Below, one piece after another: positions 2,719-20,221 of a stretch of DNA of 44,446 bases. The position numbers and the translations under genes were made by a program. This stretch comes from a virus. Numbering within the stretch: position 1 is the stretch's first letter; each line of letters opens with the position of its first letter. The stretch spans positions 1 to 44,446 of IMG/VR virus record IMGVR_UViG_3300017598_000575; one strand, written 5' to 3'. Under the pieces are notes generated by a model, which saw only the letters and a program-made list of their open reading frames with translations, was not told the origin of the DNA and made no database searches.

Positions 2719-2888
2719 CCCTCAACTATCCTCTCAAAACATTTACGGCACAGGTTTGAATTATTCGGCATATCAACCACACGCTGACATTCAGTACAAT
2801 ACTCATCCCGTCCCTGACTGACATCAAAGTTTTCGGTCTGGCATACGCCGCTATTTCTCGCTATTTGGGCTTGTTGTTCAATGTCCAT
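2715..2888 (-). CDS. Small four-cysteine zinc finger protein
   Basis: 57 aa from the ATG at 2888, chosen over the ATG at 2900 because GAGG lies four bases upstream. A C-x2-C pair (CTEC) and a second pair (CRKC) with about 14 residues between them form a probable zinc ribbon, similar in layout to DksA/TraR-type small zinc fingers but without their full motif. It is coupled to the methyltransferase gene downstream and overlaps the gene upstream. The function is unknown; a transcription-related role is plausible. Confidence 0.6.
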   Translation of the reverse strand: MDIEQQAQIARNSGVCQTENFDVSQGRDEYCTECQRVVDMPNNSNLCRKCFERIVEG

Positions 2889-3168
2889 AAAACCTCGCAC
2901 TCATGCCGCTGGTTAGTTTTTTAGCAATTGGAGTTATTGCGGGTAAAGGGTTAGTTTTTATGTTGTCTTTTCTGCTGTCATTTTTAGTTATTATTTTTTC
3001 CGCTGAGGCCATGCTAATTTCATTACCACCGTTTAAATATTTTCTTAACGCGTTCATGTACGATATGTAAGTTATTTTGTTTTCAGCCTCTACCATGTCG
3101 TATAGTTGCTCTCGGGTTATTCGCCCTACTCCAACCACTTTGATTAATTGATGTAATCTACCCATCAT
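2878..3168 (-). CDS. Hypothetical phage protein in the nin-type region
   Basis: 96 aa, basic, mostly helical by eye. The segment GVGRITREQLYDMVEAEN looks like a small HTH-type or winged-helix stretch, but no family is recognised. It overlaps the RusA-like gene upstream at the ATGA junction and the zinc-finger gene downstream. In lambda-like phages this position carries small nin genes that adjust host transcription or recombination. Confidence 0.55.
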   Translation of the reverse strand: MMGRLHQLIKVVGVGRITREQLYDMVEAENKITYISYMNALRKYLNGGNEISMASAEKIITKNDSRKDNIKTNPLPAITPIAKKLTSGMSARFYGH

Positions 3169-3581
3169 TCCACCCCCAAAATAAATATTTCTACCCGGCC
3201 ATTACTCTTATCAACATTTCCAAATTCCTCACTGCTGGCTACAACGTGCTTGTAATTGTCATCAGGAATGATTTTTAAATCGGTTAAAGCATCCTCAATA
3301 AATTTCTTGTGCACCGCGGTCACGTTGCCTATATCGGTTCTTCGATGTGTTTTCGGGTACAGGACATACTTAACTTTGATTTTGTTCCAAGGGTCTAGTT
3401 GTCTAATCTGCTCTGACACTATCGCCTTGTAATTCACTTTGGCTGTATTCAGAGTGAAATGGTTGGCATTCCGGTAGTTGTTCAGATTAAGAATGAATTT
3501 CTTTCTGCCCGAAACAGGCACCGACAACGGGCTAATAATTGCTGGCTGAAAAGGAAAGGCCCATTGTTCAAAATTATCCAT
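3165..3581 (-). CDS. rusA: RusA-like Holliday junction resolvase
   Basis: 138 aa, the usual length. RusA enzymes are small dimeric endonucleases that cut Holliday junctions and use a cluster of Asp residues for metal binding. Here the block RRTDIGNVTAVHKKFIEDAL and the following IIPDD supply the expected Asp residues and the family Lys. It sits with NinB, a YbcO-like nuclease and SSB, a standard phage recombination set. Probable role: resolving branched phage DNA before packaging. It overlaps its neighbours on both sides by a few bases. Confidence 0.8.
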   Translation of the reverse strand: MDNFEQWAFPFQPAIISPLSVPVSGRKKFILNLNNYRNANHFTLNTAKVNYKAIVSEQIRQLDPWNKIKVKYVLYPKTHRRTDIGNVTAVHKKFIEDALTDLKIIPDDNYKHVVASSEEFGNVDKSNGRVEIFILGVE

Positions 3582-5109: not shown

Positions 5110-5210
5110 GTAAAACACATCCCGCTATCACAAGTTGCAAACAAATCCGGTTGGTCATTAGAGCCAAAATCGGTCTTATCTAGTGTTTGGTTGTAATTTA
5201 TTGTTTTCAT
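5106..5210 (-). CDS. Tiny soluble ORF coupled to the adenine methyltransferase
   Basis: 34 aa from ATG 5210, which overlaps the methyltransferase stop (ATGA). The sequence is polar (MKTINYNQTLDKTDFGSND) with two Cys near the end and no recognised domain. It ends by overlapping the next ATG at 5109. The chained overlaps suggest that it is translated by ribosomes leaving the methyltransferase gene. Confidence 0.4.
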   Translation of the reverse strand: MKTINYNQTLDKTDFGSNDQPDLFATCDSGMCFT

Positions 5211-5761
5211 GCTGCTTTCACTCGACTTGGCTTGTTAAGTTGAAATCTCACGCGCTGAACATTGGTTCTGGGGAATCCATTGAATACCGAAATGCAACTG
5301 GGGAAATTCACGCCTGATTTTTCCAGACCTGTCTCGGGATCCACAAAATTCACCCGGCTAGTTGGCACGAGCTGCAATAAGCAATTGTCTTCAATTTTCT
5401 GATACCATGCGGTGTCCGGTGTATCGGGATGAACTAGCGCAATTGTTAAGCCCTTCTGCGATTCCTCGATTACCTTCTGGATCCATTCGTCTAGCTGTGA
5501 AAATGGAGGGTTTACGAATGCTGCTGGACTAGAAATAAAGCGACCTCCATCCATCCAACAATCAAGATCAGCTGCCCAGTCCATTGCAAGACCGTTTACC
5601 TCTGGAGTGAAAAAGCAACCGGCTTTTTTGTTTTTCTCGGTGCAACAAGGATCCAGGACAAATTGAACATTTAGAATCTTGGACACTTGCTTAACTAACC
5701 AAGCTGGTGTTTCCCATAAATCTCGTACTGAGGCTTTCGTATTTGTACTTGTTAAATTCAC
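5207..5761 (-). CDS. Phage N6-adenine DNA methyltransferase (Dam-like)
   Basis: 184 aa from GTG 5761, chosen because GGAGG lies five bases upstream; the in-frame GTG at 5773 lies inside that site. It has the features of the phage N-6-adenine-methyltransferase family: a start like LWETPAWLV, LDPCC near residue 36, and the catalytic NPPF motif. It would methylate adenine in phage DNA using S-adenosylmethionine. Together with the cytosine-type enzyme at 2065-2718, the phage carries two methylases and no visible restriction nuclease, so protection from host restriction is the likely role. Confidence 0.8.
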   Translation of the reverse strand: MNLTSTNTKASVRDLWETPAWLVKQVSKILNVQFVLDPCCTEKNKKAGCFFTPEVNGLAMDWAADLDCWMDGGRFISSPAAFVNPPFSQLDEWIQKVIEESQKGLTIALVHPDTPDTAWYQKIEDNCLLQLVPTSRVNFVDPETGLEKSGVNFPSCISVFNGFPRTNVQRVRFQLNKPSRVKAA

Positions 5762-5773
5762 AACTTCCTCCAC

Positions 5774-13199: not shown

Positions 13200-13471
13200 A
13201 TGTAAATTTACAAAAGATATGGGACTTATCACAGTCTCCATTATTACCTCGTGGGGTTGACATTTTTGTCAATTCATCTGGACACGTTCAAATGACAGAT
13301 GTTTATGTCAATATCGATGAAAAATACCTTAAGGGTAGCACCCATAACACGGTATTTCAGCTTTACATTGCTAACAATAGTAAAAATTATGCATCCAAAA
13401 TGGAAAATGCCCTAAATGAAATCCAAGGCATTATTTATAAGGTTGGCCAGAAAACGGAGAAAGCGGCATGA
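13196..13471 (+). CDS. Hypothetical protein before ERF
   Basis: 91 aa from ATG 13196, which overlaps the previous stop (ATGA). The in-frame ATG at 13181 is inside the previous gene and lacks a ribosome-binding site. The first half is beta-like (VDIFVNSSGHVQMTDVYVNI), the second helical and basic. Unrecognised. The coupled order with erf suggests a part in the recombination operon. Confidence 0.55.
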   Translation: MNVNLQKIWDLSQSPLLPRGVDIFVNSSGHVQMTDVYVNIDEKYLKGSTHNTVFQLYIANNSKNYASKMENALNEIQGIIYKVGQKTEKAA

Positions 13472-14088
13472 GTTGTTTAATTGATATACAAAGAGAGCTA
13501 GTTGTGACAAAGAGTCACTATAACGCCTTTGGTAAATATTCATACCGCTCTAGTGAGGACATTTTAACAGCTCTCAAGCCATTGCTCATTAAGTTTGATG
13601 CCGTGCTTACAGTGACCGATGATATCGTGTTTAGCGGTAATTTTGTCTACATAAAAGCCACAGCCAGCCTATCCTGCAGTGACAAAACCTATACAAGCTC
13701 CTCTTATGCACGCGACCCGTTAGAACAAAAAGGTATGAGTGCACCACAAACCACTAATTCAGCATCCTCCTTTGCTAAAAAACAAGCCTTGTCAAACCTA
13801 TTTTTAATTGATGACACTGCCGAAGTGCCGCCAACCAAGGAAGAGCAACTTGAAACAGAGCAGGCTGAAAAAAACGCAAAAGAAGAAGAACGAAACCAGA
13901 TTAACGAATGGCTAAAAACTTCAATTGCACACCTCAATAATGCCCAATCTCCAGGTGAGCTTAAAGGGTTGTTCGGTAATTTTTACCGGGAGGCAAAAAA
14001 AATTGGCCAAGGTGAAATGGACGGGTTAACCAAAGAGTATCAGAAAAATAAGAAGAGGCTGGAGGAGAAACAAAGTGAATCTGTTTGA
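13468..14088 (+). CDS. erf: ERF-family single-strand annealing protein
   Basis: 206 aa. It has the ERF signature: FGKYSYRSSEDILTALKPLL near residue 25, then GMSAPQTTNSASSFAKKQAL around residue 90, matching the G-x-x-Q-T-G-A-x-SYA-K-R core with an Ala/Ser change. These proteins form rings on ssDNA, anneal complementary strands and act in phage recombination and genome circularisation. The C-terminal third is a charged helical tail. It works with the Gp157-like product that overlaps its end and with NinB and RusA-like proteins from the other operon. Confidence 0.85.
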   Translation: MSCLIDIQRELVVTKSHYNAFGKYSYRSSEDILTALKPLLIKFDAVLTVTDDIVFSGNFVYIKATASLSCSDKTYTSSSYARDPLEQKGMSAPQTTNSASSFAKKQALSNLFLIDDTAEVPPTKEEQLETEQAEKNAKEEERNQINEWLKTSIAHLNNAQSPGELKGLFGNFYREAKKIGQGEMDGLTKEYQKNKKRLEEKQSESV

Positions 14089-15551: not shown

Positions 15552-16298
15552 ATGAATGTAAACAACACTTTGGATTTATTGGCAGGTAACGCCGCCCTAA
15601 TGGGCGACCCCGAGAAAATGCTTCTATTACGTGATGACATTATTCAGGCAATAAAGTTTGATCTTGGAGACGAATTTACCGATGTGCCTGGTTTTGAAAT
15701 GAAGGAATCAAAGGTGGCTGTTCCGCGACTGCCTTATGATAAAGTTTATTTCGAGGCTGTATCTTCGGATGGAAAGCGGTATGGGGCAATTTTTGAGAAT
15801 TACGGAGAATATGGCGTATGCGGTCAGATGCTTGTTAAGGCGCGAGCAGAAAACACTCCCGGCGTGAAGGGGCTGTTCCCGGTGGGCTTAATGTTCACGC
15901 AGGACAAGGATGAGTTACTTCTTCATCACGACCACAAAGAAGTATTCAAAGAATTGCAGATAGGCGCGGTTGCAGCGCTTGATTTGATGGTAAAAGCGAT
16001 AGCAGTAATAAATTGCTCTAATGTAAAAATCATTGAGTCTCAGGAAAAGAAACTAATTAACAGAAAGCGCAAGGCTAAAGGAAAGTTGCCGCTTTTTACA
16101 TATAAGACACTTCATGTTGACACTAGCGAGCGCGAAGAGCAAAGGCTTTCTCCGACAGGAACGCATGCTTCGCCAAGAGTGCATTTGCGTAGAGGCCACA
16201 TCCGCAAGCTACCAACCGGAAATTCGGTGTGGGTGCAGCCCTGCGTAGTTGGGGATAAGAGTAAAGGCATTGTGCACAAAAACTACACTGTGCACTGA
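15552..16298 (+). CDS. Large hypothetical phage/plasmid protein with C-terminal GTHASPRV motif
   Basis: 248 aa, with GAGGAAG upstream. The first 190 residues are an unrecognised alpha/beta domain. The C-terminal 60 residues hold the conserved block GTHASPRVHLRRGHIRK followed by SVWVQPCVVGD, a basic module seen in many phage and plasmid hypotheticals. Its His and Arg content hints at nucleic-acid contact. It begins 16 bases after the attC-like site, and a second GCCTAAC sequence follows its stop at 16302. A partial second copy of its C-terminal motif lies at 15126-15203. Confidence 0.6.
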   Translation: MNVNNTLDLLAGNAALMGDPEKMLLLRDDIIQAIKFDLGDEFTDVPGFEMKESKVAVPRLPYDKVYFEAVSSDGKRYGAIFENYGEYGVCGQMLVKARAENTPGVKGLFPVGLMFTQDKDELLLHHDHKEVFKELQIGAVAALDLMVKAIAVINCSNVKIIESQEKKLINRKRKAKGKLPLFTYKTLHVDTSEREEQRLSPTGTHASPRVHLRRGHIRKLPTGNSVWVQPCVVGDKSKGIVHKNYTVH

Positions 16299-17192: not shown

Positions 17193-17438
17193 ATGGAAAA
17201 CGAAAAACTAGATGAGTTAATAGATGGCATTAATATCCTGGTCAACCTGTTGTCCAAACCAAAAGTTGCTGACAATCAAGAATTATGGGACGAGCGACAA
17301 TGTGCGGCTTACCTTGGATATGGTGAGAGCAATTTTAGACAAAGAATAGCTTGCAAGCCAACCTTTCCAAAGCGCATTGTTTTAAATCCAGGCGGAGAAA
17401 AAGAAACAAAACGATGGGTCAACTACCCACTGAGCTGA
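17193..17438 (+). pseudogene. AlpA-like HTH gene interrupted by the IscB element
   Basis: 81 codons. A coiled-coil start (ENEKLDELIDGINILVNLL) is followed by an HTH pattern (LWDERQCAAYLGYGESNFRQ, then TFPKRIVL) as in phage AlpA-type activators, which normally end in a RW-x-x-x-E-V-x-x-W helix. Here the frame reads KRWVN and then runs into the omega-RNA scaffold, giving an odd YPLS end. The final helix is missing, so the gene was probably cut by insertion at about 17425. The product may still be made as a shortened protein. Confidence 0.65.
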
Positions 17439-17670
17439 AGACTCAGGGGCTTGAATCGTGAGATTCGAGATAGCGGTAGCAATATCGTAATAGGTGATTA
17501 GCCTAAGTGCTTAGAGCACTACGTTGTTTTAGTTATAGCACCCTCGGATACCTCCCAAGTCCGTTGCCCTGCTTCTTGGTATTAAAAGAGTTCAACGACT
17601 CGGTGTACTAAGACTGACAAGCTATTACAACATTGGCGATGGGAATCAACCTCGTGAGAGGATTAGTTTT
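17426..17670 (+). ncRNA. Omega-RNA (HEARO) guiding the IscB nuclease
   Basis: Between the interrupted gene and iscB lies a 255-base non-coding stretch with IscB omega-RNA features: a first stem CCCACTGAG/CTCAGGGG (17426-17449), a GTGA-loop hairpin CTTGAATC/GATTCGAG (17450-17469), an AGTGCT/AGCACT hairpin, a GCACCCTCGGAT...CCCAAGTCC block, and a final CCTC-GTGA-GAGG hairpin (17650-17661) followed by ATTAGTTTT. From memory, the CACCC-GGAT-AGTCC and 3' hairpin-TTTT parts match the known OgeuIscB omega-RNA. The guide should be about 16 bases just upstream of 17426. Confidence 0.75.
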
Positions 17671-17694
17671 TAATTAACTATTTAAGGTTTTAAA

Positions 17695-18879
17695 ATGAGA
17701 GTTTTTGTTATTAATCAGCATGGTGAAGCATTAATGCCTTGCTATCCCCGAAAAGCCAAAATACTGCTTAGAGCAGGAAAAGCGAAAGTTATTTCTCGTT
17801 CACCTTTTACTATTCAACTGAAATACGGCTCAACTGGTTATAAACAGGATTTAACTCTGGGCGTTGACACGGGGCATAACGAAGTTGGCTTGAGTGTTGT
17901 TTCAGAAACAAAGGAAGTTTTTTCAGCGGTGGCTTCTATGCGAAATGATATTTCCAAGAAGGTGACTGAGCGAAAAATGTACCGTAGAAACAGAAGAAAC
18001 CGATTGAGGTATAGACAGCCTCGTTTTCTCAACAGGAAAGCCAGCACCAGACAAGGTAGGCTTGCACCTTCTGTTCAATGGAAAGTGGATGCCCATGCAA
18101 AATTGATCCGTCAGTTAAAAATGTTATTACCAATAACAAAGGTGGTATTCGAAACGGGTACGTTTGATACCCATAAGCTAAAAAATCCTGACATTAAGAA
18201 TGAGCAATATCAGAAAGGCGTTCAATATGGTTTTGAGAATGTAAAGGCTTATGTCTTAAGTCGTGATGGCTATAAGTGCCAGTGTGGGCAAAAAGGATGT
18301 GCCTCTACATTAGAGGTTCACCACATTAAATACCGCTCTCAAGGTGGTTCTGATGCACCTGAAAATCTCATTACATTGTGTTCAAAACATCATAAGGCAC
18401 TGCATGACGGAAAATTGAGTCTGAATATTACAAAGCACAAAAGTTTAAAGTCTGCCACTACGATGAATGTGATCCGTTCTCAGTTGTTGAAGTTGTTTCC
18501 TGATGCGATAGAAACTTTTGGTTATGTGACTAAAGCAAATCGCTATCAACATGACATCGATAAAAGTCATAGCAATGATGCTTTTGTCATAGCGGGCGGG
18601 TCTTTTCAGGAAAGAGAGTTAGAGCGGATGGTGAGCTTTAAACGTAAGAATAACCGTTCTATCCAGAAGAACCGAAAAGGTTTTTCTCCTTCCATTAGAA
18701 AACAACGATATGCAATACAACCAAAAGACCTGGTGAATTTTAAAGGAAAGCAATACCAGGCGGTAGGCATACAGAACAAGGGAGCATACTTGAAAATGTC
18801 CGATGGACTTAAAGCTATTGTAAAATCCATGAAGCAAATTGAAGTGGTATTTCATCAAAAAGGTATTATTTACGCATGA
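17695..18879 (+). CDS. iscB: IscB RNA-guided nuclease
   Basis: 394 aa, typical IscB size. The PLMP domain is at the N-terminus (EALMPCYPRKAKILLRAGKA, 11-30). RuvC-I is LGVDTG with D58; the Arg-rich bridge helix is at 92-116. RuvC-II is VFETGT with E153; the HNH has C195/C197, VHHIKYRSQGG (H209/H210), N224 and CSKHHKALH. RuvC-III is SHSNDAF with H292/D295, and a target-interaction domain follows to the C-terminus. All catalytic residues are present, so it should cut both DNA strands. It is the ancestor family of Cas9 and uses the omega-RNA just upstream. Transcription is with the xis/int genes. Confidence 0.9.
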   Translation: MRVFVINQHGEALMPCYPRKAKILLRAGKAKVISRSPFTIQLKYGSTGYKQDLTLGVDTGHNEVGLSVVSETKEVFSAVASMRNDISKKVTERKMYRRNRRNRLRYRQPRFLNRKASTRQGRLAPSVQWKVDAHAKLIRQLKMLLPITKVVFETGTFDTHKLKNPDIKNEQYQKGVQYGFENVKAYVLSRDGYKCQCGQKGCASTLEVHHIKYRSQGGSDAPENLITLCSKHHKALHDGKLSLNITKHKSLKSATTMNVIRSQLLKLFPDAIETFGYVTKANRYQHDIDKSHSNDAFVIAGGSFQERELERMVSFKRKNNRSIQKNRKGFSPSIRKQRYAIQPKDLVNFKGKQYQAVGIQNKGAYLKMSDGLKAIVKSMKQIEVVFHQKGIIYA

Positions 18880-18992
18880 GCAGTGATTACAGAACTTTGA
18901 ATCATTCAAAATTCTTAATAATGTTTAATCGTCGCTTTGATAAGCGGAGGTGAGTGAGATGAAAACGCGCCAACTCACAGGAGTAGAAATCA

Positions 18993-19319
18993 ATGCAAAG
19001 CCAGATAGCAAGTGCTTCTGATGTCGCTCAGATGCTCAATTGTAGCGTCGATCACATTAACCGGATGGCTAGAAGTGGACAGCTAAGAGCTTTTAAAGTT
19101 GGAAAATCTTGGGGTTTCATAATTGATGACCTTGTTGAAGACTTAAGGAACAGATACTATAAACCCACAAATGGCGTAAAAGAGGACAAAAAATGTCAAT
19201 CTACAAACGCAAAAATTCACCGTATTGGTACATCAAATTTGAAGTCAACGGACTCAGAATACGACAATCTGCTGGGACTACAGACAAAGAAGAAGCCGAA
19301 CAAAAGGAGGCAGAATTAA
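18993..19319 (+). CDS. Excisionase-like HTH protein (probable Xis)
   Basis: 108 aa with CAGGAG upstream. Residues 6-50 form a MerR-type HTH with wing (ASDVAQMLNCSVDHINRMAR, then SGQLRAFKVGKSWGFIIDDL), as in phage excisionases. The last 42 residues are encoded within the start of int in another frame (127 bp overlap), look low in structure and are probably just read-through. A tiny ORF with AGGTGAG (18960-19022) overlaps its start. Its place before int supports Xis. A broken paralogue is at 15055-15141. Confidence 0.7.
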   Translation: MQSQIASASDVAQMLNCSVDHINRMARSGQLRAFKVGKSWGFIIDDLVEDLRNRYYKPTNGVKEDKKCQSTNAKIHRIGTSNLKSTDSEYDNLLGLQTKKKPNKRRQN

Positions 19320-20221
19320 AACGCCAGTTGTGGCGTGAGAAAAACTTGGGGGATAAGCCGAAGCGCACCTGGAAAGAATCAGTTGTAAAATTCGTCAAGG
19401 AAAAAGCACATAAAAAAAGTCTAGAACACGACATTTATATGTTTAAAATTTTAGACCCTTATCTGAAAAATTGTAACCTGGACGATTTAACACGAACATT
19501 TATTGATGATACTTTAAATGACTTGCAAGACGAACGAGACCTTTCTAATGCCAGGGTTAATCGTTATGCATCCGTTATATCAACTGTTTTAAACCTGGCC
19601 TGCAAAGAATGGGAATGGATAGATAAAGCGCCTAATATTCGCCGCCGCAAATCTTCACTTAAGCGCATTCGTTGGATAACCCAGGCAGAAGCCTATCAAT
19701 TGCATCTTTGTATGCCCGACCACCTTAAAAATGTCGTTAAAATAGCATTGGCAACTGGATTGAGAAAAACCAATTTGTTGTCGTTAAGGTGGGATCAAAT
19801 CGATATGCAACGCAAAATTGCTTGGATACATGCAGACGAAGCAAAGGGAAAGCGGGATATAGCCATCCCACTTAACCAGGACGCTTTGGATGCTTTACAT
19901 GGGCAAATCGGAAAGCATCAAGAGTTTGTTTTCTCTTATGCTGGCCGACCTTTCCATATTGATAATGATACTTGGAAACGCGCTATAAAGAAAGCCGGGA
20001 TTGAAAACTTTAGATTTCATGATTTGCGGCACACTTGGGCATCCTGGCACGTTCAAGCGGGAACCAGTTTGCAAGAATTAATGGAGCTGGGAGGCTGGCG
20101 AAGTTATGACATGGTATTGAGATATGCCCATTTATCCAGCCACAAATTGAGTGACGCAGCCGACCGAATAAGCACAAAATCGTCCCACTCAAATATAATA
20201 GAGCTAAAAAAGAAAGGATAA
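19193..20221 (+). CDS. int: Tyrosine-family phage integrase
   Basis: 342 aa from ATG 19193, with AGAGGA upstream. The arm-binding start (SIYKRKNSPYWYIKFEVNG) and SAM-like core domain (about 60-155) precede the catalytic domain, with R191 (ATGLRKTNLLSLRW), a Lys in EAKGKRDIAIPL, H276/R279 (FHDLRHTW), W302 (GGW in the H/W position) and Y311 (LRYAHL). All catalytic residues are present. It integrates phage DNA at attP/attB and, with Xis, excises it. The downstream non-coding stretch should hold attP. Confidence 0.9.
   Translation: MSIYKRKNSPYWYIKFEVNGLRIRQSAGTTDKEEAEQKEAELKRQLWREKNLGDKPKRTWKESVVKFVKEKAHKKSLEHDIYMFKILDPYLKNCNLDDLTRTFIDDTLNDLQDERDLSNARVNRYASVISTVLNLACKEWEWIDKAPNIRRRKSSLKRIRWITQAEAYQLHLCMPDHLKNVVKIALATGLRKTNLLSLRWDQIDMQRKIAWIHADEAKGKRDIAIPLNQDALDALHGQIGKHQEFVFSYAGRPFHIDNDTWKRAIKKAGIENFRFHDLRHTWASWHVQAGTSLQELMELGGWRSYDMVLRYAHLSSHKLSDAADRISTKSSHSNIIELKKKG

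Follow-up and report, generated by a model that had tools for sequence, protein, structure and literature searches.

An apparently immobilised IscB transposon relic in an AlpA-like phage gene and its possible role in RNA-guided homing

IscB cuts DNA under the guidance of an RNA and is a relative of the Cas9 ancestor, and the IscB/HEARO OMEGA nucleases are reportedly the subject of the study by Altae-Tran 2021. Protein homing endonucleases are the classic drivers of gene exchange between phages. For IscB and IsrB it is established that the guide lies on the 5′ side and the target-adjacent motif (TAM) on the 3′ side (PMC9581776). HEARO nucleases cut plasmids in E. coli, and more than 16% of the fragments encoding HEARO were assigned to viruses or prophages (PMC9755519); HEARO was also annotated in Silviavirus phages (PMC13346280). 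For TnpB, gene-drive activity in plasmids has been demonstrated (PMC11870625). A literature search, for which subscription papers were mostly out of reach, found no report of homing by IscB in phages. The occurrence of IscB/HEARO on viral contigs and the TnpB gene drive are thus already known, and the immobilised anatomy of a phage-borne copy is added here. As on the viral contigs and in Silviavirus, HEARO/IscB is carried by a phage in the case described below; as far as their accessible text goes, those two sources report the presence of HEARO, whereas the comparison of junctions and empty sites was made here.

The stretch of DNA analysed (the window) is the complete record IMGVR_UViG_3300017598_000575, a 44,446-base IMG/VR virus contig. 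It encodes a terminase, a lambda-family portal, a protease-capsid fusion, a tape measure protein, a primase, a helicase, an Erf-like annealase, a Rha-like regulator and an integrase. Judged by its genes it is a temperate tailed phage, with the contig cut inside the terminase gene. The nearest relatives of the integrase, the AlpA-like protein and IscB suggest a gammaproteobacterial host. No DNA-level relatives of the phage were found in phages or plasmids, and the gene at 15552-16298 gave no matches when used as search bait. The window also encodes a phage N-6-adenine methyltransferase-like protein (5207-5773, minus strand; 91 bits, slightly below the NCBIfam cut-off of 97) and, 3′ of the integrase, a protein with a Staphylococcal-nuclease-like domain (SNase, PF00565; 20694-21116, plus strand). 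The features of the IscB locus are listed in Table 1.

Table 1. Position of the IscB element, the interrupted gene and selected phage genes in the window.
Feature	Position	Strand	Basis
Erf-like single-strand annealing protein	13468..14088	+	phrog_155, 107.3 bits
AlpA-like small regulator gene (phrog_4996), 5′ part to the KRW codons	17193..17417	+	46.8 bits; relatives aligned
Predicted guide AGAAACAAAACGATGG	17402..17417	+	directly 5′ of HEARO model position 1
HEARO omega-RNA scaffold, also left end of the element	17418..17650	+	RF02033, 118.6 bits, model 1-211
Left-end hairpin CCCACTGAG...CTCAGGGG within the scaffold	17426..17449	+	paired in HEARO alignment
iscB, RuvC and HNH, 394 aa	17695..18879	+	Pfam, NCBIfam and PDB matches, alignment
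IS200-type tnpA 5′-end remnant (MSSDYRTLNHSKFLIMFN)	18876..18929	+	aligned with MDYKTKNHSKFLIVYH of L016, same place after iscB
Possible AlpA-like 3′ tail, reading IVALISGGE and stop	18928..18957	+	weak
Excisionase-like HTH gene	18993..19319	+	phrog_2907 excisionase, 40.7 bits; Pfam HTH_17
Tyrosine integrase	19193..20221	+	Pfam Phage_integrase, 110.9 bits

The first-pass annotation of this DNA had described a complete IscB with the RuvC residues D58, E153 and D295 and an HNH domain, and both the database matches and the alignment bear this out. The reading frame matches NCBIfam NF040563 (guided_IscB) with 333 bits (cut-off 175) as well as the Pfam families RRXRR (199.5 bits) and HNH (36.3 bits), and its PDB matches are OgeuIscB and other IscBs. 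D58, E153, H209/H210 and D295 align with the equivalent residues in eight other IscBs. The omega-RNA-like scaffold that had been seen just upstream of iscB, and that was to be compared with the HEARO covariance model, is matched by RF02033 over its full length (E 4.8e-24, cut-off 83). This is the sole Rfam match at gathering score across the 44 kb, and it ends 44 nt before the iscB start codon. The window shares with the IscB/HEARO OMEGA nucleases (NF040563, RF02033; PMC9755519) the RRXRR/RuvC domain with the inserted HNH, and the HEARO omega-RNA just 5′ of iscB with the guide position at its 5′ side. Unlike in those systems, the guide position is occupied by a phage gene, tnpA and the right end are lost, and the activity is predicted. 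Comparison of iscB with its closest relative over 155 codons (Nei-Gojobori method with Jukes-Cantor correction) yielded a dN of 0.13 and a dS of 1.51; the IscB family has therefore been under purifying selection, which may be older than the immobilisation.

The interrupted frame (17193-17438) reads ...KETKRW up to base 17417 and was assigned by its match to the phrog_4996 profile. Pfam gives no AlpA match, thus "AlpA-like" is a loose label. Relatives collected from IMG/VR, GTDB contigs, phages and plasmids are only about 26-45% identical, and several of them, including plasmid ones, adjoin an integrase; in the window, excisionase-like and integrase genes are located 3′ of the element. After the shared W the relatives continue for about 11-25 residues, typically with three residues, E or D, and V or I, which shows that the window copy is cut short. 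The frame had been reported to break at KRWVN. It is indeed cut after KRW, but VN (GTCAAC) represents the first six bases of the scaffold. Since HEARO position 1 is base 17418, the junction is at 17417/17418 and not at about 17425 as first proposed. The guide, for which a length of 16 nt was assumed, consequently lies about 8 nt further left than the earlier estimate of about 17410-17425. That the guide position is filled by the phage gene's own sequence was correct, as AlpA-like coding bases abut HEARO position 1. Any insertion built in this way has a guide that matches the interrupted gene, and the match is therefore no independent evidence for function.

The guide sequence is present once in the record. 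An 18-mer ending at the guide 3′ end had one match in IMG/VR, in a gene that is not AlpA-like in appearance; according to a rough estimate about one chance match is expected there. An uninterrupted close relative of the AlpA-like gene was not found in IMG/VR, GTDB contigs, phages or plasmids. The record with an integrase 45% identical to that of the window (L007) has no convincing AlpA-like gene in the stretch examined, and integrases that are 48-49% identical have no AlpA-like gene alongside.

The initial account of the element, an IscB with HEARO, holds, but it overlooked that this is a decayed transposon. The iscB stop codon overlaps the ATG of a tnpA remnant, of which about 18 codons are left. 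A 30-nt part of the remnant is 86.7% identical to an intact element (E 0.007), and the similarity ends near 18929. The complete record contains no match to the Y1 transposase (PF01797). The nearest full relative, L016 in genome G118, is an IS200/IS605-type IscB transposon consisting of HEARO, IscB (56% identity), a tnpA for a 131-aa IS200-type transposase (134 bits) and a right-end hairpin. L016 and the window share the order left end, HEARO, iscB and tnpA start, but most of tnpA and the right-end hairpin are missing from the window. The L016 genome has a second copy, L017, which runs into the edge of its contig; it has lost tnpA and kept the right end. The closest IscB relative (79% identity over 155 residues) was found in another phage (L053; IMGVR_UViG_3300009702_000128, 2787-3400). 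This element of the same family lies just 3′ of a terminase gene and is internally deleted, with both ends and a remnant of the tnpA start but no usable iscB. It begins like the left end of the window copy (TCAACTACCC). L053 has thus kept both ends and lost most of iscB, whereas the window has kept iscB and lost the right end: the right-end motif common to L016, L017 and L053 is absent from it. With tnpA cut to about 18 codons and the right end gone, the window element reads as the remains of an IS200/IS605-type IscB transposon that became immobilised with phage-gene sequence as its guide.

Downstream of the tnpA remnant, the stretch 18928-18957 is suggestive of the tail of the AlpA-like gene. 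Adding it lengthens the phrog_4996 match by 1.4 bits over controls, which is weak, and it does so only at a four-residue spacing after W, the spacing expected from the AlpA-like relatives. Should this tail be genuine, the AlpA-like gene would have lost up to 12 nt at the right side, including the target-adjacent motif, and the TAM would therefore be unreadable from the window copy.

Homing between phages, which the first-pass annotation had put forward alongside competition, is, we infer, the likeliest function of this unit. Probably, if only just, it works as an RNA-guided nuclease for homing or gene drive that is tied to the AlpA-like locus. The omega-RNA would be transcribed through the AlpA-like gene and would load IscB. 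In related phages or prophages, the complex would then cut AlpA-like alleles that lack the element, and repair from the element-carrying copy would copy the element. The phage's own Erf-like protein is a candidate for this recombination step. The occupied locus should be spared, because there the guide sequence is followed by GTCAAC and not by the original right flank. In this way RNA-guided homing at a fixed site would have taken over from transposition as the means by which the element persists. The complete HEARO and IscB, a tnpA remnant as in L016 with neither a Y1 transposase nor the right-end motif, the low dN relative to dS and the Erf-like annealase in the same genome argue for such a role, and so do the empty sites for other phage IscBs in sister phages, the TnpB gene drive and the plasmid cutting by HEARO nucleases. 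Weighing against it, no empty AlpA-like site that would show the target or the TAM turned up in IMG/VR, GTDB contigs, phages or plasmids. Like the TnpB gene drive (PMC11870625), the guide records the insertion site and element-free copies are cut, which for the window is a prediction; the published case differs in that it was experimentally shown for TnpB, in plasmids and with a transposition-competent IS. Phage protein homing endonucleases, as described in the accessible part of PMC10448857, likewise break the element-free allele and are copied by recombination, but their target is set by protein, while in the proposed case it would be set by RNA from the insertion site.

The empty sites come from pairs of phages with and without an IscB element. 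The Staphylococcus phages VL10, JDF86 and Golestan101-M encode IscB without adjacent tnpA, and their HEARO matches are weak (about 32 bits, below the cut-off). Comparison of JDF86 with phiSA_BS1 revealed an insertion without target loss and flanks that are 99.7-99.8% identical. For Golestan101-M and PSU4 there is likewise no target loss on the left side, nor across 24 bases of the right side. VL10 and Romulus give a less clean picture: an imperfect repeat of about 19 nt around the junction restores the start of the next gene. In the Nodularia phage kac68v162 (L038:2780-4305), IscB with a HEARO of 82.7 bits, just below the cut-off, splits a TnpB-type transposase gene, of which the sister phage kac68v161 (L051) has an uninterrupted copy; the flanks are 99.6-100% identical. 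Both junctions share about 4 nt (AGGA, AAGG, AAGA) in the JDF86, Golestan101-M and kac68v162 comparisons, which would represent either microhomology or a short duplication. Near-identical sister phages with empty sites indicate that carriers and non-carriers of the element both circulate and that an empty allele with a match to the guide exists; this comparison bears on the circulation of empty sites in other phages and not on cutting.

The main rival to homing is that the element is a passive relic, a dead passenger which lost tnpA and the right end by deletion and whose IscB and omega-RNA, useless to the phage, have not yet decayed. We consider this rather unlikely. The loss of tnpA and the right end agrees with it, the related phage copy L053 without most of iscB shows that decay in phages is real, and the insertion removes just the last residues of a small AlpA-like gene. 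However, nothing is missing from the iscB frame, its catalytic residues or the RNA scaffold although tnpA is lost, and several other phage IscBs without adjacent tnpA retain a full-length nuclease gene. An improbable reading is that the complex serves as a weapon without copying, destroying rival phages or prophages with an intact AlpA-like gene (superinfection exclusion). The phage sequence at the guide position would make related phages the targets, and a resident prophage could express the complex ahead of infection. Since both flanks are shared, repair-copying would be expected here too, and no element-free relative was found in IMG/VR, GTDB contigs, phages or plasmids.

Mobilisation in trans, with a host-encoded IS200-type transposase moving the window copy, is very improbable: the window copy has its left end, hairpin included, and L017 and L053 are tnpA-less copies that retain the right end, but the window lacks the right-end motif of all three relatives. 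The least credible alternative is an RNA-guided regulator, in which IscB would bind and repress AlpA-like or integrase-region targets without cutting. The element sits in a regulator-like gene next to the excisionase and integrase genes, as this would require, yet the RuvC and HNH catalytic residues are all kept.

If RNA-guided homing is true, such an element would retarget itself at each insertion and IscB would have a role outside transposition. Whether it applies more widely is doubtful: IscB-omega-RNA units without a transposase might form a class of RNA-guided homing elements in phages. The flanking guide would tie each unit to the site of its insertion, and cutting of alleles that lack the element would spread it between phages; the elements of Staphylococcus, of Nodularia and of the window would each be an example. 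The occupied and empty pairs kac68v162/kac68v161, JDF86/phiSA_BS1 and VL10/Romulus make RNA-guided homing testable, and the window adds one more complete but immobilised phage IscB.

Several further observations concern the insertion sites and the ends of the element. In kac68v162 one RNA-guided nuclease element sits within another. The IscB elements of Staphylococcus Twortvirinae (L037, L041, L042, L049), which have no adjacent tnpA, are located at different loci just 5′ of a gene. The Staphylococcus insertion sites lie at Shine-Dalgarno-like AAGGNG, which could serve as a TAM, be recognised by a transposase or simply be common in intergenic DNA. Next to L053, the terminase large-subunit gene (L053:516-2786) is split into several ORFs and the inserted segment looks intein-like. 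When the L053 site was sought in its empty form, the same contig was the only match. Besides L053, the left-end pattern retrieved two contigs that resemble neither iscB nor the element, and the pattern had no matches in 369 genomes. The Shewanella aestuarii plasmid NZ_CP050314.1 (L015) has IscB at three places, of which one is accompanied by a HEARO match of 103 bits, and is a possible source of sister copies for the element ends. TATAAA is found 6-8 nt past the conserved right-end GCC in L016, L017 and L053, where it could be a TAM or an end feature. The TAM of OrufIscB is ATAAA (PMC13180657); the resemblance is a lead only, as the spacing varies and the motif was chosen post hoc.
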